A stretch of DNA of 64,000 nucleotides from Thermoproteota archaeon (GTDB lineage Archaea > Korarchaeota > Korarchaeia > Korarchaeales > Korarchaeaceae), in the NCBI GenBank assembly GCA_027491415.1, contig JAOZFH010000007.1:1-64000 (forward strand), in the 5' to 3' direction. Shown piece after piece: positions 4,599-37,610 of the stretch. The notes beneath the pieces were generated by a model. That model was not told the origin of the DNA, did no database searches, and saw only the letters and a list, made by a program, of their open reading frames with translations. How positions within the stretch are numbered: the stretch's first letter is position 1; every line of letters starts with the position of its first letter. The translations under genes were made by a program, and so were the position numbers.

Positions 4599-4603
4599 TG
4601 CGG

Positions 4604-5539
4604 ATGGACCTGTCGGTGGTTGAGAACATCCTGTGGGTCGGTTTCAGATCGGCGACCCCCCTCCTCCTCGCCTCCCTCGGCGAGATCTACGCAGAGAGGT
4701 CGGGAATACTCAACCTGGGCGTCGAGGGCATGATGATAATGGGGGCGGTATCCGCCTTCATCACCGCACTGACCACGGGCAACCCCTGGCTGGGCGTGGC
4801 CGTGGCGACGGCGGTCGGCATACTAATGTCCCTCATACACGGGGTAATCAGCATCCACCTCCGGGGCAACCAGGTCGTCTCCGGCCTGGCCCTCACGATG
4901 TTCGGGCTCGGGCTGAGCAGCGTGATCGGGAGGAAGTACGTCGGCTATCAGCTACCCGTAAAGGCGAGGTTCCTCCCCAAGCCTCTTGCGGAGGGGCTTG
5001 TCAAGCTTCCGGTGATAGGTAAGGCGCTGTTCGACCAAGAGCCGCTGTTCTACCTCAGCATAGTGATCGCCGTCGTTCTCTGGTTCGTCCTCTACAGGAC
5101 CAAGGTGGGGATAGTTATCAGGTCAACGGGCGAAAATCCTGCAGCGGCCGACGCCCTTGGAATTAACGTCTACCTCGTGAGGTACGCCTGCACAGCCCTT
5201 GGAGGGGCCCTGGCTGGCATGGCTGGGGCCTACCTATCGGTGGCCTACAGCCCGGCCTGGATAGAGAACATGACAGCTGGCAGGGGCTGGATAGCGCTGG
5301 CGCTCACGATATTCGCCCTCTGGAACCCGCTGAGGGCAATATTCGGGGCCTACCTGTTTGGAGTCGTCGAGGCCGGGGGGTACACCCTGCAGGCCTACGG
5401 GTACAGCCAGTGGCTCCTGAACGGAGTGCCGTACCTATTAACGGTGATAGTCCTCACCGCCGGCGCCACGGAGACCATGAGGAGGAGGATGGGGGCTCCG
5501 GCAGCGCTCGGAGTGCCCTACGTGAGGGGAGAGAAGTAG
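4604..5539 (+). CDS. ABC importer permease 2 (BMP/nucleoside class)
   Basis: About 311 residues; the second, homologous permease of the importer (YufQ/NupQ-like). It has the family pattern ERSGILNLGVEGMMIMGA near the N-terminus and a TGENPAAADALGI coupling loop. The frame is open from GTG 4595 and ATG 4598, but AGGAGG at 4590-4595 gives best spacing to ATG 4604, which I chose. It is probably translated together with permease 1. Substrate cannot be read from the permease; the gene context favours a nucleoside or nucleobase derivative. Confidence 0.87.
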   Translation: MDLSVVENILWVGFRSATPLLLASLGEIYAERSGILNLGVEGMMIMGAVSAFITALTTGNPWLGVAVATAVGILMSLIHGVISIHLRGNQVVSGLALTMFGLGLSSVIGRKYVGYQLPVKARFLPKPLAEGLVKLPVIGKALFDQEPLFYLSIVIAVVLWFVLYRTKVGIVIRSTGENPAAADALGINVYLVRYACTALGGALAGMAGAYLSVAYSPAWIENMTAGRGWIALALTIFALWNPLRAIFGAYLFGVVEAGGYTLQAYGYSQWLLNGVPYLLTVIVLTAGATETMRRRMGAPAALGVPYVRGEK

Positions 5540-5772
5540 CCCCCTCCCCCTCTCCCTCATTTGAGGCCGGGCCGCCGGGCCCCCGCTGGGTCGGGGACTC
5601 ACCCGGTGATCGATCGGCGCCTGCCGAAGTCCCTTCGAAAATATTGACAAAGAACGTCTGTGAATACAATAATTTTAACAATTTGGGGACGATGCCCGCT
5701 TTTCTCGGGTAAGACGCTCGTTTTACCGGGCCGAACGCCCGGGCGGCGGGGTTAGCTTTTCGACTCCCGGGA

Positions 5773-5780
5773 AAAATTTA
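5773..5780 (+). promoter_or_regulatory. TATA-like box before the BMP binding protein
   Basis: AAAATTTA lies about 55 bases before ATG 5834. The box overlaps the upstream in-frame ATG 5780, so that ATG would not be transcribed; this decides for the later start. The binding protein thus probably has its own strong promoter. The rest of the 5540-5833 gap holds an AT-rich patch near 5640-5690 and GC-rich short inverted repeats, but no gene I can support. Confidence 0.5.
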
Positions 5781-5833
5781 TGGGCATCAAATCGGCAATC
5801 AACTCACCCACGCTCTCCGTGGGAGGGATAGAC

Positions 5834-7138
5834 ATGACCTCATCCCAATGGGCTGCCTTAGTTATAGTTGGCATCATAGTCGGGGCGGCGATCGGGTACC
5901 TTGCGGCGCCGAAGGGCGCGGCGGAGTGCCCCCCGTGTCCGACCGAAACTCCGGCCCCGGCAACCTGCCCTCCGTGCGAGGCACCCCCGGTCAAGAAGAT
6001 CAAGGCGGCATGGATATACGTTGGACCGATCGGGGACATCGGTTGGACTTACGCTCACCACGCCGCTAAGGAGATGGTCGACCAGAAGTACGACTGGCTG
6101 GAGACCACCCACGTGGAGTCGGTCGCCCCGGCCGAGTGCGCCGGAGTGATAGAGCAGCTGATCGGCCAGGGCTACGACGTGATCTTCACCACAAGCTTCG
6201 ACTTCATGGATCCGACCCTCGAGGAGGCCCAGAAGCACCCCGACAAGATCTTCTGGCACTGCTCCGGCTACAAGAGGGCTCCCAACATGGGCACCTACTT
6301 CGCCGACTTCTACCAGGTCTACTACCTGAACGGCCTGATGGCTGGCGCCCTGACCCAGACCAAGAAGATCGGCTACGTCGCCGCGCACCTGATCCCCGAG
6401 GTGGTGAGGCACATCAACGCCTTCGCGCTGGGCGTCAAGGAGGTCTGCCCCGACTGCAAGGTCTACGTCAGGGAGATAGGCGCCTGGTACGATCCGACCA
6501 AGGCTAGGCAGGCCGCCGAGGCCCTGATCTCCGAGGGCGTCGACGTGCTGGCATTCACGGAGGACTCGCCGACCGTCGTCCAGGTCGCCCAGGAGCACTT
6601 CGAGAGGGGCGAGAGGGTCCTCGCCTTCGGCCACTACAGCCCGATGCTTGAATACGGTCCCGACGTCTGCGTCAGCGGTCAGCTGGTGCACTGGGAGGTG
6701 ATCTACGACGACATCCTGAGCAAGATATACTCCGGCTCCTACAACACCCAGAACCTGCAGAACGTGGACTACTGGTGGAAGCTGAAGGAGGGCTCCGTCG
6801 AGCTGGGCTGCGCCTTCAACCAACCGATCAACCCCAAGTTCATCAACGAGCTCAAGTCCGTCAGGGTCCAGGAGACCATCCAGCTGCCCAACGGCACCAT
6901 AATCGAGAACCCGGATGTCTACACCCTCGTGATGGCCAGGCTCATCCAGATGGGCGCGGTCTGGACAGGCAGCGGGTGGGTGTTCGTGAACGACGAGGTC
7001 TTCGATCCCTTCACCGGGCCCATCTACGACGACCAGGGGACGCTGAGGGTCATGGCCGGACAGAGGCTAGGCCACGACGAGCTCTGGTCCATGCAGTGGT
7101 GGGTTGACAACGTAGTCGGGCCGGCCCTGGGCGGCTGA
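5834..7138 (+). CDS. BMP-family substrate-binding protein, N-terminally anchored
   Basis: About 434 residues from ATG 5834, with GGGAGGG eight bases upstream. A single hydrophobic helix (about residues 7-25) is followed by a short linker with two CPPC pairs, then the periplasmic-binding fold beginning KIKAAWIYVGPIGDIGW. That start, the GYDVIFTTSFDF segment and the IGYVAAHLIPEV hinge are typical of BMP/Med/PnrA proteins, which bind nucleosides. The four linker cysteines could form disulfides or a covalent anchor and are unusual. It lies downstream of the matching ATPase and permeases. The ligand is inferred, not shown. Confidence 0.82.
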   Translation: MTSSQWAALVIVGIIVGAAIGYLAAPKGAAECPPCPTETPAPATCPPCEAPPVKKIKAAWIYVGPIGDIGWTYAHHAAKEMVDQKYDWLETTHVESVAPAECAGVIEQLIGQGYDVIFTTSFDFMDPTLEEAQKHPDKIFWHCSGYKRAPNMGTYFADFYQVYYLNGLMAGALTQTKKIGYVAAHLIPEVVRHINAFALGVKEVCPDCKVYVREIGAWYDPTKARQAAEALISEGVDVLAFTEDSPTVVQVAQEHFERGERVLAFGHYSPMLEYGPDVCVSGQLVHWEVIYDDILSKIYSGSYNTQNLQNVDYWWKLKEGSVELGCAFNQPINPKFINELKSVRVQETIQLPNGTIIENPDVYTLVMARLIQMGAVWTGSGWVFVNDEVFDPFTGPIYDDQGTLRVMAGQRLGHDELWSMQWWVDNVVGPALGG

Positions 7139-7335: not shown

Positions 7336-7830
7336 ATGGTTGAGGGGGTTCAGAACCTCTTGGTAATAGACCCCGACAAGTGCACCGGGTGCAGGATTTG
7401 TGAAGAGGCCTGCTCCTTTCATCACTACGGCGAGTTCAACCCCAGGCGATCTTACATACAGGTCCTGAGGAATGACTTCGAGGGCGTCTTCATCCCCATG
7501 ACCTGCCAGCACTGCGGCAAGCCCCTATGCGTCGAGGCCTGCCCGACCGGCGCCCTATACCAGTTCGGCAACGCCGTCTTCCTCGACAAGTCCAAGTGCA
7601 TAGAGTGCAAGCAGTGCCTCAACGCCTGCCCGTTCGGCGGCATTCAGGTGGACCCGGTGACATTCCAGGTGGTGAAGTGCGACCTCTGCGGCGGAGACCC
7701 GCAGTGCGCCAGGAGGTGCCCCACGGGCGCCATCAAGTGGGTCAGGGCCGACCAGGTTGGCTACCAGAAGAAGGTTGACGGGGCCCAGAGGTCCGCCAGG
7801 CTGATCTCATTGATAGTCCCCCAGGGGTGA
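7336..7830 (+). CDS. Polyferredoxin subunit with four [4Fe-4S] motifs, partner of AOR 1
   Basis: A 164-residue iron-sulfur protein. Four cysteine groups are visible: CTGCRICEEAC, CQHCGKPLCVEACP, CIECKQCLNACP and CDLCGGDPQCARRCP, enough for four clusters. This is the architecture of the small subunits that accompany some AOR-family enzymes (for example the WOR5 small subunit of Pyrococcus), where they pass electrons to or from the pterin enzyme. ATG 7336 was chosen; the frame is open to TTG 7303 but that lies near the expected transcription start. The stop overlaps the start of the AOR gene. A closely related second copy starts at 11014. Confidence 0.88.
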   Translation: MVEGVQNLLVIDPDKCTGCRICEEACSFHHYGEFNPRRSYIQVLRNDFEGVFIPMTCQHCGKPLCVEACPTGALYQFGNAVFLDKSKCIECKQCLNACPFGGIQVDPVTFQVVKCDLCGGDPQCARRCPTGAIKWVRADQVGYQKKVDGAQRSARLISLIVPQG

Positions 7831-9770
7831 TGCGTGTGGTGGAGTTGGGCGGATACGCGGGGCGGTACCTGAGGGTGGATCTCTCGGCCGGGAAGATCTG
7901 GGTAAGGGAAACCCCGAAGGAGCTCATCAGAAACTACCTGGGCGGTCTGGGGTTCGCGGTCAAGATACTCTGGGACGAGGTGGACGAGCACACGGACCCG
8001 CTCGGGCCGGACAACAGGCTCGTCATCTCCACGGGCCCCCTGACAGGCACCATGTTCCCGGCGGCGGGGAGGTACCAGGTGAACGCCAAGTCGCCCCTCA
8101 CAGGGATCTGGGGTCACGCCAACGCTGGTGGATTCTTCGGCCCCGAGCTCAAGTTCGCCGGATACGACTTCATCGTGATACAGGGCAGGGCGGAGAGGCC
8201 GATCTACCTGGTCATCGACGACGACCTCGTCGAGCTGAGGGACGCTAGCCACCTCTGGGGAGAAGAGAGGAACGGTAGGTTCTACGGCGGGAAGACGACC
8301 TTCGAGACCATCCAAATGATCAGGGAGGAACTCGGAGACGAGACGTTCAAGGTCGCGGCCATCGGCCCGGCCGGAGAGAACACGGTGAGGTTCGCCTCCA
8401 TCATCAACGACCTCGGCAACGCGGCAGGCCGGACGGGCATGGGCGCCGTCATGGGCTCCAAGAGGCTCAAGGCCATAGCCGTCAGGGGGAGCAGGGGGGT
8501 TCGGGTCGCGAAGCCCGAACTCTTCATGGAGGTCGTCGATGACGCATACAGGAAGCTCTTGGTGGACTGGGGCGACGCGCTGAAGGAGACGCTCACCAAG
8601 TACGGCACGCCAAACCTGGTAGAGGCCATAAACGCCATGGGGAGGATGCCAGTCAAGAACCACTGGACCGGCTACTGGGAGAAGGCGCACCTCATAGGGG
8701 GGGAGAGGATCAGGGAGGAGTTCAGGGTCAAGCAGGCAAGCTGCTTCGGCTGCCTGGTGCAGTGCAAGTACCTCGTGAGGTCGAGGAAGGAGCCCTACGC
8801 CGGGATCTACAAGGGACCTGAGTACGAGGCCCTGGTGTCGTTCGGGTCCAGCCTGCTCGTCGAGGATGTTGAGGCGGTCTTCTACGCCAACCACCTGGCC
8901 GACCTCTACGGGATGGACTCGATCTCGCTGGGAATGACGATTGCGTGGGCCATGGAGAGCTGGGAGCACGGCCTGTTGACGAAGGAGGACACGGGAGGAC
9001 TTGACCTGAGCTGGGGCAACGCAGAGGCCATGGTCGAGCTGGTGAAGAAGACGGCCTTCAGAGAGGGGTTCGGGAACGTGATAGCGGAGGGGAGCAAGAG
9101 GGCCTCCGAGATCGTAGGCAGGGGGACCGAGAGATTTGCGATGCACGTTAAGGGCAACGAGATCTCCGCCCAGGACGGCAGGGCCCATCAGTCCTCCGGG
9201 CTGACGCACGCGACGGCCGCCAGGGGGGCCGATCACCTCACCTCGCTCTCCTGCCTCGAGGAGAGGGGATACGAGCAGGTGGCCGCGGAGAGGTACGGTG
9301 CAGACAAGGTGAAGGATCTAGTGGATCCCCAATCTACCAGGTACAAGGGCTGGCTCGTCTGGGACCTTGAGATGCTCTACGCGCTTGGCAACTCCCTGAT
9401 AATATGTTGGTACGAGGTCGGCTGGCCGCCCGTCTTCTACTACCCCGACATGGCTAGGGCCGTCGCCGCGGCCACGGGCATAGCGGAGTTCGGCGACCCC
9501 AACGAGGTCAAGAGGATAGCCAAGAGGATAGCCATCCTGAGGAGGATGTTCAACGTGAGGGAGGGACTCAGGAGGAAGGACGACACGCTCCCCGAGAGGT
9601 TCCTGAAGGAGCCCATGCCCACCGGACCGGCGAAAGGCCACGTCTGCAGGCTCGACGAGATGCTGGACGACTACTACGAGGCCGCCGGCATAGACAAGGA
9701 GACAGGCGTGCCCAAGGACGAGACCCTGAGGGAACTCGGCCTAGGCGAGCTGGCCGGTAGGTGGAGGTGA
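7830..9770 (+). CDS. Aldehyde:ferredoxin oxidoreductase family protein, AOR 1 (tungsten type)
   Basis: A 646-residue AOR-family protein. These enzymes carry a bis-pterin tungsten (or molybdenum) cofactor and one [4Fe-4S] cluster and oxidise aldehydes, or reduce acids, with ferredoxin. Visible marks are the N-terminal GYAGRYLRVDL, the conserved GRTGMGAVMGSKRLKAIAV segment, the cluster motif C-x2-C-x3-C (Cys305, 308, 312) with the fourth cysteine in LIICWYEVGWPP, and QDGRAH followed by RGADH in the cofactor region. ATG 7830 overlaps the polyferredoxin stop. The substrate is unknown; an operon with a PreA-like protein and a cyclic amidohydrolase suggests a heterocycle- or amide-derived compound rather than a general aldehyde. 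Confidence 0.88.
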   Translation: MRVVELGGYAGRYLRVDLSAGKIWVRETPKELIRNYLGGLGFAVKILWDEVDEHTDPLGPDNRLVISTGPLTGTMFPAAGRYQVNAKSPLTGIWGHANAGGFFGPELKFAGYDFIVIQGRAERPIYLVIDDDLVELRDASHLWGEERNGRFYGGKTTFETIQMIREELGDETFKVAAIGPAGENTVRFASIINDLGNAAGRTGMGAVMGSKRLKAIAVRGSRGVRVAKPELFMEVVDDAYRKLLVDWGDALKETLTKYGTPNLVEAINAMGRMPVKNHWTGYWEKAHLIGGERIREEFRVKQASCFGCLVQCKYLVRSRKEPYAGIYKGPEYEALVSFGSSLLVEDVEAVFYANHLADLYGMDSISLGMTIAWAMESWEHGLLTKEDTGGLDLSWGNAEAMVELVKKTAFREGFGNVIAEGSKRASEIVGRGTERFAMHVKGNEISAQDGRAHQSSGLTHATAARGADHLTSLSCLEERGYEQVAAERYGADKVKDLVDPQSTRYKGWLVWDLEMLYALGNSLIICWYEVGWPPVFYYPDMARAVAAATGIAEFGDPNEVKRIAKRIAILRRMFNVREGLRRKDDTLPERFLKEPMPTGPAKGHVCRLDEMLDDYYEAAGIDKETGVPKDETLRELGLGELAGRWR

Positions 9771-9775
9771 GCCCG

Positions 9776-10963
9776 ATGGTGGACCTGACGGTTGAGGTCG
9801 CCGGAATCAGGTTCAGGAACCCCGTGCTCACGGCCGCCGGACCGCCCAGCCAGAACGCGGCCGCCCTGCTCGCGGCGGCCAGGGCAGGGGTAGGCGGGCT
9901 CGTGGCCAAGACCATCAGCGTTGAGCCCGCCAAGGTTCCCAGGCCCACCATGGTGGTCCTGGACAGGGGGTTCACGGATTTCGACGTGTTCTACGCCGCG
10001 GGAGGGAGGATTGTCAGGAGGACCAGGACTAAGCTCTTCATGCCGAGGGGCCTCCTCAACACCGAGCTCTGGTCGGACCTCCCATACCAGCGCTGGCTCG
10101 ACGTTGAGTACAGGCTGGCCAAGAGCTCCGGCCTGCCCCTTATAGCCAGCATAGGCTACACGGCCGAGGAGGTCAGCTTCCTAGGCAAGAAGGTGCAGGA
10201 GGCGGGCGTGGACGGCATAGAGTTCTCCCTCCACTACGTCGGGATAGACTACAAGCCCATCTTGGAGATCGCAAAGGCGTTGAGGGAGGCGGTTGACATC
10301 CCGATATTTGCGAAGCTGAGCCCGCACATCCTCAATCTGCCTGAGTTCGCCAAGGAGCTGGAGAAGATAGGCGTAGACGGGATCGTGGCGGTAAATTCGC
10401 TGGGACCGACGCTGCACATCGATATAGAGGAGGGCAGGCCGATGCTCGGCGGGAAGTACGGCTACGGCTGGCTCTCCGGCCCGGCGATCAAGCCCTTGGG
10501 CGTGAGAGTGGTTGCAGAGGTCGCGAGGAACACGAACCTGCCGGTGATTGGGGTGGGTGGAGTCACGAAGGGGGAGGACGCCATAGAGTACTTCATGGCC
10601 GGCGCCTCGGCCGTGCAGATCTGCACCGGCGCCATAATCGAGGGTCCGGGGATCTACGGCAGGGTGGCCAGGGAGATAGGGAAGTGGCTAGAGGAGCACG
10701 GCTACGACTCGGTGGAGGACATCAGGGGCATCGCCCTGAAGCACATGAGGGAGGAGCCCAACTACGAGGTCCGGAACCCCGTGGTGGACCCGGAGAAGTG
10801 CACCGCCTGCGGCATCTGCGAGCAGGCCTGCAGGTACAACGCCATCAGGATAGAGGGAGAGAGCGGCAAGAAGACGGCAGTCGTGGATCAGTACGCCTGC
10901 TACGGCTGCGGCGTCTGCGTGAGCATCTGCCCCGTCAGGGCGGTTACCTTCCCGCCCTCCTGA
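9776..10963 (+). CDS. PreA-like FMN/iron-sulfur oxidoreductase (dihydroorotate/dihydropyrimidine dehydrogenase family)
   Basis: About 395 residues from ATG 9776 (GGAGGTGAG just upstream). An FMN-binding TIM barrel, with IFAKLSP, VNSLGP and GVGGVTKGEDA at the flavin strands, is fused to a C-terminal ferredoxin domain with CTACGICEQAC and CYGCGVCVSICP. This layout matches PreA, the pyrimidine-reducing subunit of dihydropyrimidine dehydrogenase. However, the active-site loop that in PreA/DPD carries the catalytic cysteine (NLSCPH) reads EFSLHYVG here (residues 149-156), with no cysteine, so uracil/thymine should not be assumed as substrate. No PreT-type NAD(P)H subunit lies nearby; the flanking polyferredoxins are plausible electron partners. 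Confidence 0.75.
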   Translation: MVDLTVEVAGIRFRNPVLTAAGPPSQNAAALLAAARAGVGGLVAKTISVEPAKVPRPTMVVLDRGFTDFDVFYAAGGRIVRRTRTKLFMPRGLLNTELWSDLPYQRWLDVEYRLAKSSGLPLIASIGYTAEEVSFLGKKVQEAGVDGIEFSLHYVGIDYKPILEIAKALREAVDIPIFAKLSPHILNLPEFAKELEKIGVDGIVAVNSLGPTLHIDIEEGRPMLGGKYGYGWLSGPAIKPLGVRVVAEVARNTNLPVIGVGGVTKGEDAIEYFMAGASAVQICTGAIIEGPGIYGRVAREIGKWLEEHGYDSVEDIRGIALKHMREEPNYEVRNPVVDPEKCTACGICEQACRYNAIRIEGESGKKTAVVDQYACYGCGVCVSICPVRAVTFPPS

Positions 10964-10964
10964 A

Positions 10965-10970
10965 TTTTTT
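10965..10970 (+). terminator. T-tract after the PreA-like gene
   Basis: Six T residues begin directly after the stop codon, preceded by a pyrimidine-rich coding end. It may cause partial termination inside the operon, before the second polyferredoxin. Confidence 0.25.
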
Positions 10971-11013
10971 CCTTGTCCCGCGAGGTAGGCGAAATGGGTT
11001 GGGAGGTGGTTTT

Positions 11014-11517
11014 GTGGCCCAGATGATGTTGCTGATAACGCCCGAGCTGTGCACCGGGTGCAGGCTCTGCGAGGGGGCCTGCTCCTTCCATCACTACCGT
11101 GTGATCCAGCCCTCCAGGTCTAGGATCACGGTGGTGAAGTTCGAAGACCGCGGGCTCGACGTTCCCGTCACGTGCCTCCAGTGCGACGACGCGCCGTGCG
11201 TCGCGGCGTGCCCGACCAGCGCGCTGTGGAAGGACGAGGAGTCCGGGCTCGTGGTATACGAGGCCGAGAGGTGCATTGGATGCAAGTCCTGCATCACCGC
11301 CTGCCCGTTCGGCGGCGTGGGGTGGGACGCCGAGACCAACAGCATACTGAAGTGCGACTGGTGCGGCGGAGACCCGCAGTGCGCCAGGATCTGCCCAACG
11401 GGCGCCATCAAGTGGGTCAGGGCCGACCAGGCCGACGACACCAAGAGGAGGATGGTCGCCCTCAGGATGCAGGAGGTGGCCCAGAACCTGATGGCCCCGA
11501 AGAGGGCAGGGGTGTGA
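11014..11517 (+). CDS. Polyferredoxin subunit with four [4Fe-4S] motifs, partner of AOR 2
   Basis: A 167-residue paralogue of the protein at 7336-7830, with the same four cysteine groups (CTGCRLCEGAC, CLQCDDAPCVAACP, CIGCKSCITACP, CDWCGGDPQCARICP). The frame is open far upstream into the PreA-like gene, but that stretch is a shadow; GTG 11014 follows GGAGGTG at good spacing, with ATG 11023 as alternative. The last third shares long runs of identical DNA with the first copy, so the pair probably arose by duplication. The AOR 2 gene starts three bases after the stop. Confidence 0.87.
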   Translation: MAQMMLLITPELCTGCRLCEGACSFHHYRVIQPSRSRITVVKFEDRGLDVPVTCLQCDDAPCVAACPTSALWKDEESGLVVYEAERCIGCKSCITACPFGGVGWDAETNSILKCDWCGGDPQCARICPTGAIKWVRADQADDTKRRMVALRMQEVAQNLMAPKRAGV

Positions 11518-11520
11518 GAG

Positions 11521-13488
11521 TTGCGGTTCCCGTACAAGGGGTACGCGGGCAAGATACTGCGGGTCGACCTCACCTCAGGCAAGATCAGGGAGGTGAACAC
11601 TCCCAAGGAGTGGGCCCGCAAGTACCTCGGCGGCGACGGCATGGCGGCTAGGCTCCTCTGGGAGGAGGTCGGTCCGGGGGTCAACCCGCTGGGCCCGGAC
11701 AACAAGCTGATCGTAGCCACGGGTCCGGTGACGGGCACCATATGGCACACCTCGGGCAGGGTCGTCGCGGTGTCCAAGTCCCCGCTCACCGGGATATGGG
11801 GAGAGGCCCACTCCGGCGGGCACTTCGGGCCCGAGATTAAGTACGCTGGCTACGACATGATCGTGGTAGAGGGGGCGTCGAGCAAGCCCGTTTACCTCTC
11901 CATCTATGACGGAAAGGTGGAGATCAGGGACGCCAGCCACCTGTGGGGGAAGGACACCTACGAGACCACCGAGATGATCAGGGAGGAGCTCGGGGACCCG
12001 GCGGTGCAGGTGGCCAGCATCGGCCAGGCCGGCGAGAACCTAGTGAAGTACGCCGCCATAATCACCAACTACCACGACGCGTTCGGCAGGACCGGCATGG
12101 GCGCCGTCATGGGCTCCAAGAGGCTCAAGGCCATTGCTGTGAGGGGATTCGGGGCAGTCGAGGTGGCCCACCCTGACGAGTTCTACGAGTTCGCCCTAGA
12201 GGGGCACAGGAGAGTCCTGGAGTCGGACCAGGCCATGGAGCTCAGGAGGTTCGGCACCCCCATGCTCGTGGCGGTTAAGCAGGCCATCGGCGAGCTCCCG
12301 ACGAAGAACCACTGGGTGGGCGTGTTCGACCGATACCACTCCATAGACGCCGAGACGCTCAGAGAGAAGTATTGGGTGGCTACTAAGTCCTGCTTCGGCT
12401 GCAGCACGGCTTGCAAGAAGAAGCACCTCGTGAGGGCGGGCGAGTTCGCTGGCACCTTCACCGGGGGGCCCGAGTACGAGGCCGTCTTCGCCTTCGGCTC
12501 CAGCGCCATGTGCGACAACCTCCCCGCCATCCTCAGGCTAAACCTGCTGTGCAACAAGTACGGAGTCGACGTCATATCCGCTGGAAAGACGATGTCCTTC
12601 GTGATGGAGCTCTTCGAGAAGGGTATCTTAACGAAGGACGACACCGGGGGCTTCGAGCTCAGGTGGGGGGACTACCACGCCATGCTCGAGGCCCTCGACA
12701 TGATCGTGTTCAGGAAGGGCTTCGGGGACCTGATGGCCGAGGGCGTCAGGGCAATGGCCCAGAGGATCGGCAGGGGTGCCGAGAAGTACGCGATGCACGT
12801 CAAGGGCTTGGAAATATCCGGCCAGGACGGCAGGGCCCACAGGTCCGCCGGCCTGACGCACGCGGTGTCGGCCAGGGGCGCGGACCACATGAGGTCCCTC
12901 GTGACCGTGGACCAGCTCGCCTACTGGGACACGGCCAGGGAGAGGTTTGGCGAGGACAAGGTCGAGGGCGTGGTCAACGGGTACTCCGAGGCGTACAAGG
13001 GTCTGGCCGTGAAGATGCACGAGGATGCCTACGCGGTGAGGGACTCGCTCATAGTGTGCTGGTACACGGTAGGCTGGCCGCCAATATTCTGGATGGACGA
13101 CTTCGCCAGGTTGGCCTACCTGGTCACGGGAGAGGAGGCCTTCAAGGACGTCAGGGAGATGTGGGTGATCGGCGAGAGGATAAACAACCTCAAGAGGGCT
13201 TTCAACGTCAGGCTCGGGATAACGAAAAGGGACGACACCCTCCCGGAGAGGTTCACCAAGGAGCCAATGCCGGCCGGACCTGCCAAGGGACAGGTCGTTA
13301 ACCTGGACGTGATGCTCGACGAGTACTACACCCTGAGGGGGTGGGATCTCAAGACAGGGCTGCCTACGAGGGAGAAGCTCGTGGAACTCGGCTTGGAGGA
13401 CGTCGCCGCCGAGCTGGAGCGGCTCGGTAAGCTGCCCAGGAGTGAGCGGCCCCCTGAGGGCGAGGGAGGGGTAGGAGAGGCCGGATGA
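11521..13488 (+). CDS. Aldehyde:ferredoxin oxidoreductase family protein, AOR 2 (tungsten type)
   Basis: A 655-residue AOR paralogue with the full set of marks: GYAGKILRVDL at the N-terminus, GRTGMGAVMGSKRLKAIAV, cluster motif C-x2-C-x3-C (Cys291, 294, 298), the fourth cysteine in LIVCWYTVGWPP, and QDGRAH with RGADH. It starts with TTG 11521, three bases after its polyferredoxin. A low-complexity acidic/proline tail of about 20 residues follows the conserved end. Similarity to AOR 1 and the duplicated small subunit indicate a two-subunit enzyme that has been copied within the operon. Confidence 0.88.
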   Translation: MRFPYKGYAGKILRVDLTSGKIREVNTPKEWARKYLGGDGMAARLLWEEVGPGVNPLGPDNKLIVATGPVTGTIWHTSGRVVAVSKSPLTGIWGEAHSGGHFGPEIKYAGYDMIVVEGASSKPVYLSIYDGKVEIRDASHLWGKDTYETTEMIREELGDPAVQVASIGQAGENLVKYAAIITNYHDAFGRTGMGAVMGSKRLKAIAVRGFGAVEVAHPDEFYEFALEGHRRVLESDQAMELRRFGTPMLVAVKQAIGELPTKNHWVGVFDRYHSIDAETLREKYWVATKSCFGCSTACKKKHLVRAGEFAGTFTGGPEYEAVFAFGSSAMCDNLPAILRLNLLCNKYGVDVISAGKTMSFVMELFEKGILTKDDTGGFELRWGDYHAMLEALDMIVFRKGFGDLMAEGVRAMAQRIGRGAEKYAMHVKGLEISGQDGRAHRSAGLTHAVSARGADHMRSLVTVDQLAYWDTARERFGEDKVEGVVNGYSEAYKGLAVKMHEDAYAVRDSLIVCWYTVGWPPIFWMDDFARLAYLVTGEEAFKDVREMWVIGERINNLKRAFNVRLGITKRDDTLPERFTKEPMPAGPAKGQVVNLDVMLDEYYTLRGWDLKTGLPTREKLVELGLEDVAAELERLGKLPRSERPPEGEGGVGEAG

Positions 13489-14843
13489 CGGTTGACCTCG
13501 TGGTCCGGGGCGCCAGGGTCCTGACCTCCCAGTTCATGGTCGAGAGAGCCGGCGTCGCCGTCCAGGACGGGAAGATCGTGGCCCTGGCAAAGGATCCCCA
13601 CCTGCCGGAGGCCTCCCAGGTCGTTGACGCCGACGGGAAGATCCTGATGCCTGGGGCCATAGACGCGCACGCGCACATCTACGATCCGGACTACACGCAC
13701 AGGGAGGACTGGAAGAGCGGGAGCGAGGCCGCCGCTGCCGGTGGCGTTACCCTGCTCATGGACATGCCCCTGGTTCTCACAGTCATGCCGGAGCTGGCCA
13801 GGCAGAAGATAGAGGTGGGCGAGAGGGAGTCCCTCGTAGACTTCAGCCTGCACGCGGGCATGATGACGAGCGAGGAGCACCTGAGGAGGATGCCCGAGCT
13901 TGCGGAGATGGGCATCCTCTCCTTCAAGGCGTTCACCACCAAGCCCTTCCTGGCCAGCTACGACTACATAGAGGAGCTCCTGATCAGGGCGTCCGAGCTT
14001 GGTGGCAGGATTGTCGTCCACTCGGAGGACAATCAGGTGATAGAGAGGGGGGTTCACAGGGTCAGGGACGTTGAGGGGAGGAAGGACCCTCTGGCCCACC
14101 ACGACTCGAGGCCGCCCGAGGCTGAGGCCGTCGCCGTGGCCCGGATAATCGAGTCAGTGGCCAGGGTGGGCGGGCATTATCACGTTGCCCACATAAACAC
14201 GGCCAGGGGGGCCGAGCTGGTGGCCCACGCCAAGGCCAGGGGTCTCAGGGTGACTTCGGAGACGTGCGTCCACTACCTGGTATTCACGAAGGACGATGTG
14301 GGGAAGTGGGGGCCCTACCTCAAGATGACCCCGCCCCTCAGGACCAAGGAGGACGTCAGGGGGCTCTGGGAGGCCTTGCTCACCGGCGGCGTGGACATGA
14401 TCGCCACGGACCACGCCCCCGGCACCAGGGAAGAGAAGGAGGTCGGCTGGGACGACATATGGGAGGCCTGGGGCGGCATCCCCGGGGTGGAGACGCTGCT
14501 TCCGATCTCCATGAGCGAGGGGCTCCACAGGTGGGGGATACCGCCCACCGTGCTCTGCGCGGCCCTCTGCGCAAACCCGGCGAAGGCGTTCGGGATGTAC
14601 CCCAAGAAGGGCGAGCTGGCCCCCGGGTCAGATGCGGACCTCGTCGTCTACGACCAGAGCCTGGAGGTAGAGATCAGGGCCGACAGGCTCCACTACAAGG
14701 TGGGCTGGACGCCCTATGAGGGGATCGTCGTAAGGGGCTGGCCCGTCTTGGTCACCGTACGGGGTGAGGTCGTGGCCCAGGACGGCGAGCCCGTCGGGCG
14801 CCCCGGCCACGGGGAGTTCGTCAGGATGGGGAGGTGGAGGTGA
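13485..14843 (+). CDS. Cyclic amidohydrolase (allantoinase/hydantoinase/dihydroorotase family)
   Basis: A 452-residue enzyme of the family that opens cyclic amide rings (hydantoin, allantoin, dihydropyrimidine). The binuclear metal site is complete: HAH at residues 62-64, the lysine to be carbamylated (K148 in SFKAF), H179, H236 and the aspartate in ATDHAPG. The C-terminal stretch GWTPYEGIVVRGWPV and the ending GRPGHGEFV favour an allantoinase-like subgroup. ATG overlaps the AOR 2 stop by four bases, so it is translated with the oxidoreductases. Placement after a PreA-like protein recalls pyrimidine catabolism (reduce, then open the ring), and with SsnA and YgeY recalls bacterial purine catabolism. 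The exact substrate is open. Confidence 0.82.
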   Translation: MTVDLVVRGARVLTSQFMVERAGVAVQDGKIVALAKDPHLPEASQVVDADGKILMPGAIDAHAHIYDPDYTHREDWKSGSEAAAAGGVTLLMDMPLVLTVMPELARQKIEVGERESLVDFSLHAGMMTSEEHLRRMPELAEMGILSFKAFTTKPFLASYDYIEELLIRASELGGRIVVHSEDNQVIERGVHRVRDVEGRKDPLAHHDSRPPEAEAVAVARIIESVARVGGHYHVAHINTARGAELVAHAKARGLRVTSETCVHYLVFTKDDVGKWGPYLKMTPPLRTKEDVRGLWEALLTGGVDMIATDHAPGTREEKEVGWDDIWEAWGGIPGVETLLPISMSEGLHRWGIPPTVLCAALCANPAKAFGMYPKKGELAPGSDADLVVYDQSLEVEIRADRLHYKVGWTPYEGIVVRGWPVLVTVRGEVVAQDGEPVGRPGHGEFVRMGRWR

Positions 14844-14845
14844 TT

Positions 14846-16783
14846 ATGGATTCGGAGTCGATCGGAGTTGCCGGGAAGTACGGCGGCTGGGCCGGTCAAA
14901 TCCTTTGGGTCGACCTGAGCAGACAGAAGGTCGTGCCAAAGCCGCTGGACGAGGAGCTGGCGCTGAACTACCTCGGGGGAACGGGGTTCGCGGCCAGGTG
15001 GCTCTTCGACCTGGTCGGACCGGAGGTGGACCCGTTCAGCCCGGACAACGTCTTCATACTGGCCACGGGGGTTCTCACCGGGACGATATTCCCCCAGGCC
15101 AGCAGGCACATAGTCGCCGCCAAGTCCCCGCTCACCGACGTCTACGGCGAGGCCCACGCCGCCGGGCACTTCGGCGCCGAACTCAAGTTCGCCGGATTCG
15201 ACGCGGTCGTGGTCACCGGCAGGTCTGACAAGCCGGTCTACATATACATCGAGGACGGGAAGGCCGAGATAAAGGACGCCAGCCACCTGTGGGGGAGGAC
15301 GACCTACGAAGCGGAGGAGATTATCAAGGAGGAGATCGGAGACAGGCAGGTCAAGGCGGCGCTGATAGGGCAGGCCGGCGAGAACCTGGTGAGGTTTGCC
15401 GGCGTCTTCAACGACCACGGCAGGGCCGCGGCTAGGGCCGGCATCGGCGCCGTCATGGGCTCCAAGAGGCTCAAGGCCATCGCGGCCAGGGGTTACAGAC
15501 CCATCAAGGTGGCCAGGCCCGACGAGTTCTACGAGACCATGATCGAATACGGCAAGAGGATGCTCGCCCACCCGTTCACGCCGGACAGGGTGAAGTACGG
15601 CACCAACAGCCTGGTTGAGCTCATGCAGGCCATAGGCAGGCTGCCGGCGTACAACCACAGGGAGGGCGTGTTCGACGAGTGGGAGAAGATCTCCGGGGAG
15701 AGGGTGACGAGGGAGTACCTGCTCAAGCCAAAGGCAGACTTCGCCTGCTATCAGAGGTGCGGCCGGTTCGTCCGAGTGCCCTCCGGCAAGTACGCCATGG
15801 TAGGTAAGGGGCCCGAGTACGAGGGTCTGGACGCGCTGGGGGCCAACGTGGGGAACAGCGACCTGGAGGCCCTGATCTACGCCAACCACCTGTGCAACCT
15901 CTACGGGATGGACGTCATATCCGCCGGAGGGGTCATAGCCTGGGCCATGGAGTGCTGGGAGAACGGCCTCCTCACCAAGGAGGACACTGGCGGTCTGGAG
16001 CTCGAGTGGGGAGACCCTGAGCTGATAGTCCAGCTGATCGAGATGATCGCCCTTAGGAAGGGCTTCGGGGACCTACTGGCCGAGGGCGTCTACCGGGCCG
16101 CCAAGAAGATCGGGAGGGGAACTGAGAAGTACGCGATGCACGTGAAGAAGATGGAGATAGCTGCGCAGGACGGCAGGGCCCAGAAGAGCATGGGGCTGGC
16201 TCACGCTACCTCCAACAGGGGTGCTGACCACCTCTACGCGTTCCCGGTGCTGGACGAGGTGGGTTTCGAGAAGGACATAGTCGAGAGGTTCGGAGAGCAG
16301 TACCTCCCCGAGATGACGGACAGGTTGAACCCCAAGTACAAGGGCATCATGGTGGCGGAGCTGGAGGACTTCGGGGCCGTGGTCGAGGCCGTGGGCGTGT
16401 GCAAGTACGGCACCATAATCCCGCCGGTCTTCTTCTACCCGGACCTGGCGGAGGCCCTGACGCTGGTGACCGGGAAGAAGTACACGGAGGCCGACCTAAG
16501 GCTAATCGGCGCCAGGATCGTGAACCTCCAGAGGCTGTTCAACGTGAGGGAGGGTCTGACTAGGAAGGACGACACGCTGCCGGGCAGGTTCACCAAGGAG
16601 CCAATGCCGAGGGGGCCTGCCAAGGGACAGGTGGTGGAGCTCGACCAGATGCTGGACGAGTACTACCAGTACAGGAACTGGGACGTGAAGACTGGCATCC
16701 CCAGAAAGAGCCTCCTGTCAGAGCTTGGCCTGGAGAAGGAGGCAGAGGAGCTCGAGCGGCGGGGGATAAGGATCCCGCCGTGA
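14846..16783 (+). CDS. Aldehyde:ferredoxin oxidoreductase family protein, AOR 3 with an aspartate in the cluster motif
   Basis: About 645 residues from ATG 14846 (GGGAGGTG upstream; GTG 14834 is an alternative). It is clearly AOR family: GWAGQILWVDL, the GIGAVMGSKRLKAIAA segment, QDGRAQ and RGADH. Unlike AOR 1 and 2, the first cysteine of the [4Fe-4S] motif is an aspartate: D298-F-A-C301-Y-Q-R-C305, while the fourth cysteine is kept (GVCKYGTIIPP). The histidine of QDGRAH is glutamine. It has no small subunit of its own directly upstream; the amidohydrolase sits there. It probably acts on another compound or works as a single subunit. The operon ends here with a hairpin terminator. Confidence 0.87.
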   Translation: MDSESIGVAGKYGGWAGQILWVDLSRQKVVPKPLDEELALNYLGGTGFAARWLFDLVGPEVDPFSPDNVFILATGVLTGTIFPQASRHIVAAKSPLTDVYGEAHAAGHFGAELKFAGFDAVVVTGRSDKPVYIYIEDGKAEIKDASHLWGRTTYEAEEIIKEEIGDRQVKAALIGQAGENLVRFAGVFNDHGRAAARAGIGAVMGSKRLKAIAARGYRPIKVARPDEFYETMIEYGKRMLAHPFTPDRVKYGTNSLVELMQAIGRLPAYNHREGVFDEWEKISGERVTREYLLKPKADFACYQRCGRFVRVPSGKYAMVGKGPEYEGLDALGANVGNSDLEALIYANHLCNLYGMDVISAGGVIAWAMECWENGLLTKEDTGGLELEWGDPELIVQLIEMIALRKGFGDLLAEGVYRAAKKIGRGTEKYAMHVKKMEIAAQDGRAQKSMGLAHATSNRGADHLYAFPVLDEVGFEKDIVERFGEQYLPEMTDRLNPKYKGIMVAELEDFGAVVEAVGVCKYGTIIPPVFFYPDLAEALTLVTGKKYTEADLRLIGARIVNLQRLFNVREGLTRKDDTLPGRFTKEPMPRGPAKGQVVELDQMLDEYYQYRNWDVKTGIPRKSLLSELGLEKEAEELERRGIRIPP

Positions 16784-16930: not shown

Positions 16931-18787
16931 CTGACTGAGGGAGAGCGGGAGGTCTCCCTGAAGAGGGACGTCGGCTGGTTTGGCTCCTTCGCCATGGGCT
17001 ACGCCGATGTGGGCGCTGACGTATTCATAGCCCTAGGCCTCGTGGCAGCCTACGCGGCCGGAGGGCTTCCCCTAGCCTTCTCCCTCGCGGCGATAGCCTA
17101 CGTCCTCACGGGACTCGTCTACGCAGAGCTCTCCTCTACCTACCCGTACGCGGGCGGGGCGCAGGTCTATGCTGCGAGGGGGCTGGGGGATCCAGCTGGA
17201 TTCGTCGCCGGATGGGCCCTCCTTCTGAGCTACACGGTGGACATCGCCCTGTTCTCCATGGCCTCAGCTGGCTACCTATCCTACTTCTTCCCTCAAATAG
17301 CCTCCTTCTCTCACCGCGTGCTCGGTGTGGAGCTGAACGGGTTCGCCGCGTGCTCCATAGTCATGATACTGGCTCTGATAGGTCTCAACGTGCTAGGGAT
17401 CAGGGAGTCCTCTCGGCTGAACGAGATAATGGTCTCCCTCGGCTTGGCCGTTCAGGGCGCCCTCCTGCTGATCGGCCTCGCCTACATGAGAGCCGACACG
17501 CTCAGGGAGAACCTCCGGGAGGTCGGCTACCCTGGGGTGAGGGAGGAGGTCGCCTACCTGCCCGGAATCGGCGTGAGGGAGCAGAACTTCATCTACGGCA
17601 CCACGCTGGCCATGAGCTCCTTCATAGGCGTGGAGTCTATCGCCCAGGCAGCTGAAGAGATAAAGAGGCCCTACAAATGGATCCCACTGGCCACCAAGCT
17701 CTCGGTGGTGGCCGTCCTGGTTTTCGCGCTCGGACTCTCTCTGGTGGGAGTTGGGACCGTCGGCTGGCGGCCCCTGGCCGAGAACGCGGAAAGGCCCCTC
17801 ACGGTCTTGGCGGAATCCCTCCCCGTGATCAGGGGAGTTGCCCCGGCGCTGGTGGCCGCCACCGGATTCGTGATCAACCTGGTCTCGGCGAACACCGGGA
17901 TAATCGGCGTCTCAAGAGTGGTCTACTCCATGGGCAGGTTCCAGCTGATGCCCTCCTGGTTCAAGGCCATACATCCTAGGTTCAGGACGCCGATCAGGAC
18001 GATAGTCCTCTTCGGCCTCCTCGGAGGGCTCTTGACGCTGCTCGGCAGCCTTGAGAAGATCGCGGACGTGTACGCCTTCGGGGCCCTTGCTTCTTACGTC
18101 TTGGTAAATGTCTCCATGATCCGGCTCAGGGAGATAGATAGGGATGCCTACCGGCCGTGGAAGGCGCCGGGCTCCATTGAGGTGGGCGGGAGAGAGATCC
18201 CCCTGGTGGGCCTCATGGGCGCCCTGGCCACGGGCATCATGTTCGTCCTAGTGGCGGCCCTCCACCCTGTGGGCCGGTCGCTGGGCACGGCGTGGTTCGT
18301 GGTAGGCCTCGCGGTCTTCGCGGCCTATCGGACGGCAGTGGGCCTGCCGATCACAGGGAGGATAAGTGGAGAGATGTCCAGGCCCGCCAACTACCTCATG
18401 GACGCCCTTGTGCTCTTCAGACCCTACGACGATCCGGAGAAGGTGGCGCGCGCTGTCGCGGAGGGCCTCAGGGGCAGGTTCAGGGTCCACCTGCTCAGCG
18501 TCGTTAACCCCGCGGGCATGTCGCCCGACGAGCTCTCCGACGAGGCTGGCAGAATCCTTACCTCACTTGAGGAAACCGCCAAGAGGCTCAGATCCCGGGG
18601 GATCCTCGTGACGACTTCGGTCATGTACGGCGAGCCAGTGGAAGTGGCCGTCATGGAGGGCTCGAGCGACAGGTACGACCTCGTCGTGGTGCTCACATCG
18701 AGGCGAGCCATGAAGTCTAAAGAGAGGGGCCTGGCCAGGGTAGTGTCGGCGAGGCTTCCCGGGAAGGTGTTGGTCCTCAGGAGGTGA
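16931..18787 (+). CDS. APC-family amino acid permease with C-terminal UspA-like domain
   Basis: A secondary transporter of the amino acid-polyamine-organocation superfamily with about twelve membrane helices, followed after residue ~470 by a soluble UspA-like domain (FRPYDDPEKVARA... through a RLPGKVLVLRR end). The first ATG (16994) would cut into helix 1. The frame upstream reads LTEGEREVSLKRDVGWFGSF before that methionine, which looks like the normal permease N-terminus, so I placed the start at CTG 16931; no ATG, GTG or TTG exists in frame between the stop at 16898 and 16994. It overlaps or abuts the two small genes downstream, which encode a RAM-domain and a UspA protein. It probably imports an amino acid or amine. 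Confidence 0.72.
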   Translation: MTEGEREVSLKRDVGWFGSFAMGYADVGADVFIALGLVAAYAAGGLPLAFSLAAIAYVLTGLVYAELSSTYPYAGGAQVYAARGLGDPAGFVAGWALLLSYTVDIALFSMASAGYLSYFFPQIASFSHRVLGVELNGFAACSIVMILALIGLNVLGIRESSRLNEIMVSLGLAVQGALLLIGLAYMRADTLRENLREVGYPGVREEVAYLPGIGVREQNFIYGTTLAMSSFIGVESIAQAAEEIKRPYKWIPLATKLSVVAVLVFALGLSLVGVGTVGWRPLAENAERPLTVLAESLPVIRGVAPALVAATGFVINLVSANTGIIGVSRVVYSMGRFQLMPSWFKAIHPRFRTPIRTIVLFGLLGGLLTLLGSLEKIADVYAFGALASYVLVNVSMIRLREIDRDAYRPWKAPGSIEVGGREIPLVGLMGALATGIMFVLVAALHPVGRSLGTAWFVVGLAVFAAYRTAVGLPITGRISGEMSRPANYLMDALVLFRPYDDPEKVARAVAEGLRGRFRVHLLSVVNPAGMSPDELSDEAGRILTSLEETAKRLRSRGILVTTSVMYGEPVEVAVMEGSSDRYDLVVVLTSRRAMKSKERGLARVVSARLPGKVLVLRR

Positions 18788-18792
18788 GTTCC

Positions 18793-19053
18793 ATGCTCGT
18801 GATAATCAACCTCTATGTTGAAGCGAAGTATCTGGAGTCTCTAGTTGACGAGCTCAAGCAGATGCCTGAGGTGGTCGACCTGTTCGAGGTCACGGGAGAC
18901 CAAGACTTGGTCTTGATAGTCGAGGCCGAGTCCATCGAGCACTTCAGGAGCGTACTCGTGAAGAGGATCCTCAAGAAGCAGGGCATCAACGGCTCCAACA
19001 GCCTAGTTGTGCTCCACACCCACAAGAGGATGGGGAGGCTGTTGGAGGAGTGA
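18793..19053 (+). CDS. Stand-alone Lrp/AsnC ligand-binding (RAM) domain protein
   Basis: An 86-residue protein with the ferredoxin-like RAM fold of Lrp/AsnC regulators (LVIINLYVEAKY at the start, VVDLFEVTGDQDLVLIVEAE in the centre) but no helix-turn-helix. Such proteins bind amino acids and form ring oligomers, acting as sensors or partners of full regulators. ATG 18793 follows AGGAGGTGAG; the frame also opens at GTG 18784. Its place between an amino acid permease and a UspA protein suggests that it senses the transported ligand. Confidence 0.78.
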   Translation: MLVIINLYVEAKYLESLVDELKQMPEVVDLFEVTGDQDLVLIVEAESIEHFRSVLVKRILKKQGINGSNSLVVLHTHKRMGRLLEE

Positions 19054-19496
19054 GCGAAGGAGGCAAGAGGGTCCTAGTCCTCTTAGATGAGCCCGTCAGC
19101 GCGGAGTGCCTCGTGGGCCTCCTGGCCGGGACCCTCGGACTGACCTCGGCGGAGGTGACCCTCCTCCACGTGGTGACGGTGCCCAGGACGAGCCCCCTCG
19201 AGACCTCTGCCCTGAGGGAGCCCTCGCGCGAGGCGCTCGAGTGGCTCGATGCGCTGGCCAGCAGGCTGGCAGAGCACGGCCTGGCGGCCAGGGCCAGGGT
19301 GGCCATATCAAGGGACGTCGAGACCGCCCTGGTCGAGTCGGCGGAGGGGCAGGACCTGATGATCATTCCGACCCGGTCTATGGGGTCGGGCCTGCTGAGG
19401 GCCCTCCGGGGGTGCCCAGCGGAGAAGCTCGCTGATAGCATCAGAATTCCGGTGGTGCTCGTGAGCAGAGACCTCATGACCTGCCCGAACCTTTAG
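19050..19496 (+). CDS. UspA-like protein
   Basis: A 148-residue universal-stress-type protein: RVLVLLDEPVSAECLV first strand, VTLLHVVTVP second strand, and DLMIIPTRSMGSG before a final RIPVVLVSR strand. The classic ATP-binding G-2x-G-9x-G(S/T) pattern is only partly visible. GTG 19050 overlaps the RAM gene stop by four bases. Together with the UspA-like tail of the permease this gives two Usp modules in one operon, suggesting nucleotide-dependent control of transport. It ends 23 bases inside the convergent M20 gene. Confidence 0.65.
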   Translation: MSEGGKRVLVLLDEPVSAECLVGLLAGTLGLTSAEVTLLHVVTVPRTSPLETSALREPSREALEWLDALASRLAEHGLAARARVAISRDVETALVESAEGQDLMIIPTRSMGSGLLRALRGCPAEKLADSIRIPVVLVSRDLMTCPNL

Positions 19497-26210: not shown

Positions 26211-26263
26211 GCGATCACCCCTAATGTGGGGTCCAGGTTGCCCGGTCCGGGTGCTCAATAACT

Positions 26264-28615: not shown

Positions 28616-28674
28616 AGAACGACCTCTCAGAGCAGTTCTTCGATAGCCTCCGTGCTCCTCAAGTAGGGCCACCG

Positions 28675-28682
28675 TTTTTTAC
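28675..28682 (+). promoter_or_regulatory. TATA-like box of iorAB
   Basis: TTTTTTAC about 35 bases before TTG 28713, in a 97-base gap; iorAB therefore probably has its own promoter rather than depending on acdA. Confidence 0.45.
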
Positions 28683-28712
28683 AGTCCGGACTCGGCGGTC
28701 GGGGGGTCGACT

Positions 28713-30677: not shown

Positions 30678-30689
30678 GGGGGTGGTCAC

Positions 30690-37484: not shown

Positions 37485-37502
37485 GTCAACCCTTCCACCC
37501 TC

Positions 37503-37508
37503 TTTTTT
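37503..37508 (+). terminator. T-tract after the binding protein gene
   Basis: CCCTTCCACCC then six T residues, within 25 bases of the stop. Probably partial termination ahead of the permease genes. Confidence 0.4.
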
Positions 37509-37602
37509 GAAGCTTGGTAAAGAATCTCCGAGTTTACCAGACCTCCTGGCGTTCAAGGGACCTTCCGCCAGCCGGCTGGCCGAAAGCACCTTTTGGGAAC
37601 AC

Positions 37603-37610
37603 TTTTTTAC
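37603..37610 (+). promoter_or_regulatory. Internal TATA-like box before the permease genes
   Basis: TTTTTTAC about 50 bases before ATG 37660, inside the 175-base gap between binding protein and permease. Confidence 0.4.

Follow-up and report, generated by a model that had tools for sequence, protein, structure and literature searches.

Which pathway is served by an archaeal operon that interleaves three enzymes of the aldehyde ferredoxin oxidoreductase (AOR) family with two polyferredoxins, a PreA-like flavoprotein, and a cyclic amidohydrolase? The operon lies at positions 7336 to 16783 of a 64,000-nucleotide stretch of DNA, here called the window, at the start of contig JAOZFH010000007.1 from a member of the Korarchaeaceae (assembly GCA_027491415.1). 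An earlier reading, the original prediction, had seen in it a ferredoxin-linked pathway for heterocycles, with an emphasis on pyrimidines. We drew on features that can be read directly, namely gene content, synteny, the SsnA, YgeY, and carbamate kinase families, the PreA subtype, the clade and residues of the AORs, gene co-occurrence, and the pattern of exclusion of enzymes of the xanthine dehydrogenase (XDH) family. These lead us to conclude with good confidence that the region encodes a reductive purine pathway. We further incline to the view that the operon supplies the central redox and ring-opening enzymes of an archaeal, urate-type form of this pathway, with the AORs in the place of the bacterial enzyme XdhD.

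The operon, its flanks, and the reductive uric acid pathway

The seven operon genes are packed on the plus strand, with junctions, in gene order, of −4, +5, about +50, +3, −4, and −10 bases, five of the six being overlaps or gaps of no more than 5 bases. The gap of about +50 was counted to the likely start of the second polyferredoxin and is 26 bases when counted to the open reading frame (ORF) used. All seven products scored far over the Pfam cut-offs (AFOR_N and AFOR_C; DHO_dh with 2x[4Fe-4S]; Amidohydro_1). The packed layout that had been predicted is borne out by these data, and PreT is indeed absent from the operon, but the hairpin terminator proposed for its end was not upheld. A terminator-like match at 16756 to 16781 overlaps the stop codon of AOR3. 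Matches of this kind are no evidence for the operon end, as 10 were found compared to 8.9 expected in shuffled sequence. The functional unit is wider than the operon and extends at least from 434 to 21675, with the following features:

434 to 1756, minus strand: SsnA aminohydrolase, predicted opener of the reduced purine ring (NCBIfam PRK07203, TIGR03314)
1957 to 3525, plus strand: ATPase of a nucleoside/BMP-type ABC importer (NCBIfam ABC_ATP_B6, 526 bits, below cut-off)
3522 to 4598, plus strand: ABC transporter permease 1 (ORF; 42% identical to an SsnA-linked clostridial permease)
4595 to 5539, plus strand: ABC transporter permease 2 (Pfam BPD_transp_2; 52% identical to an SsnA-linked clostridial permease)
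5780 to 7138, plus strand: BMP/PnrA-type substrate-binding lipoprotein (Pfam PF02608, 140 bits)
7336 to 7830, plus strand: polyferredoxin 1 (pFd1), WorS/AorA-like, with four predicted [4Fe-4S] clusters (16 Cys; PDB matches)
7827 to 9770, plus strand: AOR1, AOR-family large subunit of the Gln427/Asp447 type (Pfam AFOR_N/AFOR_C; residues; clade)
9776 to 10963, plus strand: PreA/UacX-like FMN reductase with a C-terminal 2x[4Fe-4S] domain and without the catalytic-Cys loop of dihydropyrimidine dehydrogenase (DPD) (Pfam; alignments; fold)
11014 to 11517, start approximate (11014 to 11026), plus strand: polyferredoxin 2 (pFd2) (16 Cys; Pfam)
11521 to 13488, plus strand: AOR2, AOR-family large subunit of the Gln427/Asp447 type (Pfam; residues; clade)
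13485 to 14843, plus strand: HyuA-like cyclic amidohydrolase of the hydantoinase/allantoinase superfamily (TIGR03178; PDB; metal-ligand motifs)
14834 to 16783, plus strand: AOR3, AOR-family subunit lacking its own polyferredoxin (Pfam; residues; clade)
16994 to 18787, plus strand: amino acid permease of the APC type (Pfam AA_permease_2; adjoins the operon in genome G003 too)
18784 to 19053, plus strand: stand-alone Lrp/AsnC ligand-binding (RAM) domain (PF01037; kept in G003)
19474 to 20604, minus strand: YgeY-type M20 hydrolase, predicted to cleave ureido groups (PRK13004)
20710 to 21675, plus strand: carbamate kinase, ATP from carbamoyl phosphate (TIGR00746)

In the reductive uric acid pathway, XdhD reduces urate to 2,8-dioxopurine (yanthine), which is dearomatized by YgfK or by the ferredoxin-type UacX; ring opening by SsnA and HyuA follows, the ureido groups are taken off by YgeW (with carbamate kinase) and YgeY, and YgeX forms pyruvate (PMC12507026; commentary, PMC12990295). 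The pathway was reported in 2025 from a survey of bacteria only, and the main text of that report mentions neither archaea nor tungsten nor aldehyde (PMC12507026). In the window, SsnA exceeded the cut-offs of both of its families (PRK07203, 553 bits versus 444; TIGR03314, 524 versus 455.5) and was 48 to 53% identical to bacterial SsnA proteins in such neighborhoods, with 53% to an Anaerolineae SsnA that adjoins a PreA homologue (L093). YgeY passed PRK13004 (328 bits versus 321) and fell under the cut-off of TIGR03526 (256 of 321.5), and carbamate kinase (arcC) passed TIGR00746 (433 bits versus 358). The HyuA-like protein carries the metal-ligand motifs, reached 336 bits with TIGR03178 (cut-off 358) and 301 of 393 with the D-hydantoinase model, and had the L-hydantoinase 1gkr as its best PDB match (4.4e-81). 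BLAST of the E. coli proteins against the window gave identities of 33% for SsnA, 30% for HyuA, 35% for YgeY, and 44% for YqeA. Family-by-family checks of the whole source genome (G000) added a YgeW-like protein on contig C22, 47.5% identical to the YgeW of a Chloroflexota cluster (L155); in genome G002 its orthologue lies on the operon contig, about 24 kb from SsnA.

Upstream of the operon and on the same strand, a complete BMP/PnrA-type ABC importer set occupies 1957 to 7138, divergent from SsnA. Its ATPase is 55% identical to one that adjoins SsnA at two loci (L090 and L091) found in a search of 20 Clostridia genomes. At these clostridial loci, SsnA, the BMP transporter, and xdh genes are flanked by what look by eye like corrinoid protein and methyltransferase genes, which may point to methylated purines. 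A second BMP transporter is present on contig C22 of the source genome (L073/L074).

By sequence, SsnA, YgeY, carbamate kinase, a PreA-like protein without PreT, a HyuA-like enzyme, and a YgeW-like protein thus amount to most of the gene set of the reductive uric acid pathway, and the statement that no described pathway has this gene set no longer holds; the original prediction had not connected the flanking SsnA, ABC transporter, YgeY, and carbamate kinase genes to the operon. The locus resembles the system of E. coli and Clostridioides difficile (XdhD-YgfM, YgfK/UacX, SsnA, HyuA, YgeW/UacY, YgeY, YgeX, and YqeA; PMC12507026, PMC12990295) in these enzymes, with the YgeW-like protein encoded elsewhere, in a UacX-like DHO_dh reductase that by domain content lacks the FAD module, and in a purine-type importer. 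It differs in being archaeal, in having three AORs and two polyferredoxins, and in the YgeX that was not found. Since no XdhD-type (xanthine oxidase family) urate reductase was seen in the operon or its flanks, the cluster would be a variant of the reductive urate pathway and not a plain member.

The PreA-like protein was also examined for its subtype. DPD is its closest solved relative in both sequence and fold, and the FMN barrel and one 2x[4Fe-4S] domain are present. We rejected its assignment as an authentic PreA or DPD because the best NCBIfam match, PRK08318, gave 199 bits against a cut-off of 335, and because the DPD loop with the catalytic Cys671 (LSCPHGMGERGMGLACGQD; LSCPHG) is replaced by SLHYVGID. 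An ELSxHYxG-type segment (ELSTHYxG) is common to this protein and to PreA homologues that adjoin SsnA in Chloroflexota, where copies 46 to 49% identical to it lie beside SsnA, XdhA, YgeW, and YgeY (47% for the copy next to SsnA at L093). Arrangements with this HY-segment PreA include XdhD-SsnA-PreA (L149), PreA-SsnA-XdhA-XdhC..YgeW (L152), and, in the phylum of an Anaerolineae genome, a near-complete YgeY-YgeW-PreA-PreA-XdhC-XdhA-SsnA cluster (L155 to L157). In the last three loci the two PreA homologues are in tandem, and the second has an inserted loop after the HY segment.

Because the HY segment is common to the PreA proteins beside SsnA, the window protein is best assigned, as judged from sequence, to the SsnA-linked, UacX-like reductases; a comparison with E. 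coli YgfK gave no usable sequence similarity in the barrel. For the Chloroflexota, an F420-type enzyme has been reported in the reductase role (PMC12507026), whereas the SsnA genes that we found in the phylum of an Anaerolineae genome are adjoined by DHO_dh-type reductases. A PreA homologue that works on ferredoxin without PreT, PydAc, is already known (PMC7332683). The window protein shares with PydAc the PreA-type FMN barrel, an Fe-S domain, and the lack of an NAD(P)H module, but differs from PydAc in its single 2x[4Fe-4S] domain, in lacking the catalytic-Cys loop seen in DPD, and in its SsnA-linked relatives. Since that loop is absent, the emphasis that the original prediction placed on pyrimidines is probably wrong, and the purine context was missed, although the direction taken, toward a pathway for heterocycles that is linked to ferredoxin and in which AORs do part of the work, was right.

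A separate clade of AORs

The two polyferredoxins each contain 16 cysteines, enough for four [4Fe-4S] clusters, and the best PDB match of pFd1 is AorA of Aromatoleum (8c0z_C, 1.6e-35), followed by 9mqx_E and the small subunit of WOR5 (6x6u_B). Given these solved relatives, AOR1 and AOR2 count, on sequence grounds, as WorL-WorS pairs, which are class II in the classification of PMC13328260, and AOR3 stands alone. As in the class II enzymes Pyrococcus furiosus WOR5 and Aromatoleum AorAB (PMC13328260, PMC10413684), a four-cluster polyferredoxin precedes AOR1 and AOR2, and both retain all four Cys ligands of the [4Fe-4S] cluster. Thr243, Glu313, and His448 are retained in all three AORs. In contrast to the class II enzymes, Tyr427 is replaced by Gln (in all three window AORs) and Cys447 by Asp, two changes in the second shell beside the metal site, the proteins belong to a separate clade, and their genes are linked to PreA, SsnA, and HyuA. 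In AOR3, the first cluster ligand (Cys288 of P. furiosus AOR) is replaced by Asp, as it is in G003. Tyr427 is nearly invariant in characterized AORs and has been proposed to form a hydrogen bond that positions the aldehyde (PMC12096430).

In a gene tree, 15 AORs from such clusters, archaeal and Chloroflexota, formed one clade with support of 100/99, apart from the AOR and FOR of P. furiosus, Clostridium AOR, and Aromatoleum AorB. The 15 come from the window, G003, a second type of archaeal cluster (see below), the Chloroflexota loci L159 and L160, and contig C22, where the copy has its own polyferredoxin. Among 110 aligned AORs, only three positions separated the group, here called the QD type, from the others: Tyr427 is Gln in 23/23 versus 0/87, Cys447 is Asp in 23/23 versus 7%, and Tyr439 is His in 91% versus 0. 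The 23 sequences were themselves defined by Gln427, Asp447, and His448; the informative points are the agreement of this signature with both the clade and the gene context, and the near absence of further positions that distinguish the group. Within the archaeal phylum-level group that we searched (29 genomes), QD-type AORs occurred only in G000, G002, G003, G023, G024, and G025, the same six genomes that have a PreA homologue, compared to 0 of 12 sampled genomes without PreA (Fisher P = 5e-5 if relatedness is ignored, with not every AOR copy sampled). Neither PreA nor SsnA lay near the AOR at 18 Chloroflexota loci with AORs of other types.

With a clade of their own and changes at Tyr427 and Cys447, these proteins are not ordinary broad-range AORs, the outcome that would have spoken against the original prediction. 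That they act on the purine ring we regard as an even chance. Full-text literature searches, which covered few subscription papers, returned nothing that connects AOR-family enzymes with the breakdown of purines or pyrimidines, and a 2026 classification of tungsten-containing oxidoreductases mentions neither purines nor pyrimidines (PMC13328260); the AOR part is what stays without precedent in the literature searched. The selenium-dependent molybdenum hydroxylases of C. difficile (PMC11448449) likewise permit anaerobic purine use through a metal-pterin hydroxylase, but they are of the xanthine oxidase type and unrelated to AOR.

Conservation of the gene order and exclusion of XDH

The gene order, for which a search of other archaeal genomes had been suggested, recurs in two of them. 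In G002 (JAOZFN, same genus), the whole region is present at 89 to 100% protein identity, with 96 to 100% for the operon (L026). In G003 (JAOZGC, another genus; L042/L043), the seven-gene order is kept at 67 to 81%, within a longer series of transporter, pFd1, AOR1, PreA, pFd2, AOR2, HyuA, AOR3, APC permease, Lrp domain, and YgeY (55 to 81%); a YgeW-like gene lies on the other side of this conserved region. Fragments on short contigs carry AOR2-pFd2-PreA-AOR1 in G023 (QMVU, isolate B8_G17) and HyuA-AOR2 in G024.

A second, paralogous cluster type, with PreA, AOR, polyferredoxin, HyuA-like, AOR, and SsnA-like genes, is found in G002 (L045 1602 to 11311, contig C5), G024 (L048 980 to 7743, contig C19), and G023 (L276, contig C128). 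Its PreA has a VTCL segment, both AORs are of the QD type, a DapE/YgeY-like gene is present, and the SsnA-like protein is below cut-off; it probably serves a different heterocycle. At L045 (1602 to 4595), PreA and the next AOR share one frame, split by a single TGA and one codon, which is probably just tight spacing. Chance adjacency of the operon genes was rejected, given the order kept in another genus, the paralogous clusters L045 and L048, and the bacterial counterparts L159 and L160.

We then compared the distribution of AORs and XDH around PreA. Eight Chloroflexota PreA neighborhoods contain XDH-type enzymes, two contain a QD-type AOR with a polyferredoxin (L159 and L160), and none contains both. 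The two AOR-bearing clusters (L160 1328 to 9784; L159 954 to 9243) comprise an SsnA-like gene, PreA, two QD-type AORs, and a polyferredoxin, and L160 adds a D-hydantoinase over its cut-off; they are candidates for biochemistry outside archaea. Archaeal PreA neighborhoods have AORs only, except in G025, where PreA and HyuA lie without a nearby AOR and the genome contains five XDH matches and, elsewhere, one QD-type AOR. In G003, which has the whole operon, no match to the XDH large subunit (PF02738) was detected in the genome. The source genome has two XDH-family operons, on contigs C11 and C25, and G002 likewise has two XDH-family enzymes on other contigs; the replacement of XDH by AORs is therefore a pattern and not proof. 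The xdhCBA operon on C25 (L033 207 to 5494) adjoins a second HyuA-like amidohydrolase, 36% identical to that of the window, and this group lies upstream of apparent branched-chain-type ABC transporter genes.

Proposed pathway and rival explanations

In the pathway that we propose, the BMP-type ABC transporter would import purine nucleosides or bases, and the AOR-family tungsten- or molybdenum-pterin enzymes, two of them with polyferredoxin subunits, would oxidize and reduce carbons of the purine ring by hydroxylation and dehydroxylation. Reduction of a lactam to an imine by an AOR would give yanthine, replacing the xanthine dehydrogenase-type XdhD; with nitrogen in the place of oxygen, the lactam/imine couple corresponds to the acid/aldehyde couple of known AORs. 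The PreA/UacX-like flavoprotein would dearomatize yanthine with electrons from ferredoxin or polyferredoxin, not from PreT and NADPH, the two rings would be opened by SsnA and the HyuA-like hydantoinase, and the YgeW-like carbamoyltransferase, YgeY, and carbamate kinase would take off the ureido groups and make ATP. The substrates, reaction directions, electron circuit, and metal in this scheme are predicted. Adding water to hypoxanthine (C5H4N4O) gives the elemental composition of dihydroyanthine (C5H6N4O2). The electrons released by AOR oxidations at C2 and C8 could therefore exactly cover the reduction at C6 and the PreA step, and no external electron donor would be required. Such a balance would fit an operon that has polyferredoxins and lacks an NAD(P)H module. 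As a tentative extension, possible rather than probable, AOR-family (tungsten-type) enzymes would add and remove hydroxyl groups at specific positions of the purine ring, and the three AORs may serve C2, C6, and C8, exchanging electrons with the UacX-like reductase through a closed ferredoxin circuit, in a redox-neutral fermentation of hypoxanthine. To our knowledge, these reactions have so far been known only for molybdenum enzymes of the xanthine oxidase type.

Several observations weigh against the proposed AOR-based purine pathway. In a profile search of the whole source genome, the best match to the diaminopropionate ammonia-lyase YgeX gave 37 bits versus a cut-off of 274; a CysK-like gene at 23768 to 24832 was rejected as YgeX, as it passes the cysteine synthase cut-off. 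The HyuA-like protein passed no equivalog cut-off, only that of the broad dihydroorotase subfamily model TIGR00857, and the YgeW-like protein, at 182 bits, is far under its family cut-off of 500. G003 has no true SsnA (best 239 bits versus 455.5, in a genome that is 91% complete), and the XDH-family enzymes of G000 and G002 could supply yanthine without AORs. In the Chloroflexota clusters with AORs, PreA is of a second type that lacks the HY motif, and the SsnA-like proteins (examined for L160) score below cut-off; for these two reasons the ring on which these clusters act may be a different, though related, one.

These points give room to other explanations. The XDH-type enzymes elsewhere in the genome might make yanthine as in bacteria, and the AORs, in line with the aldehyde oxidation known for the family, might act downstream on an aldehyde derived from diaminopropionate, for instance through the class III aminotransferase encoded near the operon at 24870 to 26258. 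The two XDH operons of G000 and the missing YgeX agree with this explanation, but G003 has the operon and no detectable XDH, the near-invariant Tyr427 is lost, the genes with which the AORs alternate are PreA and HyuA, not the aminotransferase, and QD-type AORs and XDH are mutually exclusive near PreA in Chloroflexota; we consider it unlikely. Close to the original prediction, and in our estimate quite improbable, is a reductive pyrimidine degradation of the PydA-PydB-PydC type with ferredoxin as the donor and AORs oxidizing malonate semialdehyde. The sub-cut-off PRK08318 match, the DPD-like fold, the precedent of the ferredoxin-dependent PydAc, and the hydantoinase-type enzyme speak for it, whereas the Cys671 segment is replaced by one common to SsnA-linked PreA proteins, whose XdhA- and SsnA-containing clusters hold the closest bacterial relatives, and SsnA, YgeY, and carbamate kinase are foreign to that pathway.

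An explanation that keeps the AORs active on a ring is that the same architecture serves an N-heterocycle other than urate or yanthine, such as a methylated or deaminated purine, a hydantoin, or a pterin-like ring. The VTCL-PreA clusters of G002, G023, and G024 and the related type in Chloroflexota suggest that different versions of the module handle different rings; in addition, the substrate cannot be read from the BMP transporter, and G003 lacks a clear SsnA. SsnA and YgeY of the window, however, reach curated cut-offs of the urate pathway, and we find this alternative rather unlikely. If the purine reading with AORs in the place of XdhD is correct, a pathway worked out in 2025 in bacteria only is now placed in archaea with a different redox core, and oxygenation or deoxygenation of N-heterocycles evolved twice, in metal-pterin folds that are unrelated to each other. 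Because the AOR clade can be recognized by its residues and gene context and a class of substrates is predicted for it, the proposal is directly testable, and its confirmation would add a new kind of reaction to the AOR family.

We note a few further features of these genomes. Two minus-strand ORFs of the window, at 35661 to 37613 (650 amino acids) and 31903 to 32955 (350 amino acids), had no Pfam match at 1e-6. In G002 (L075, contig C11), a gene of the Ni-CO-dehydrogenase family (PF03063), an HdrA-like protein, and a polyferredoxin are encoded within about 10 kb of SsnA. In the segment of the window from 27272 to 31310, a gene for the alpha subunit of an ADP-forming acyl-CoA synthetase (below cut-off with TIGR02717) precedes an apparent ferredoxin oxidoreductase pair of the indolepyruvate type.

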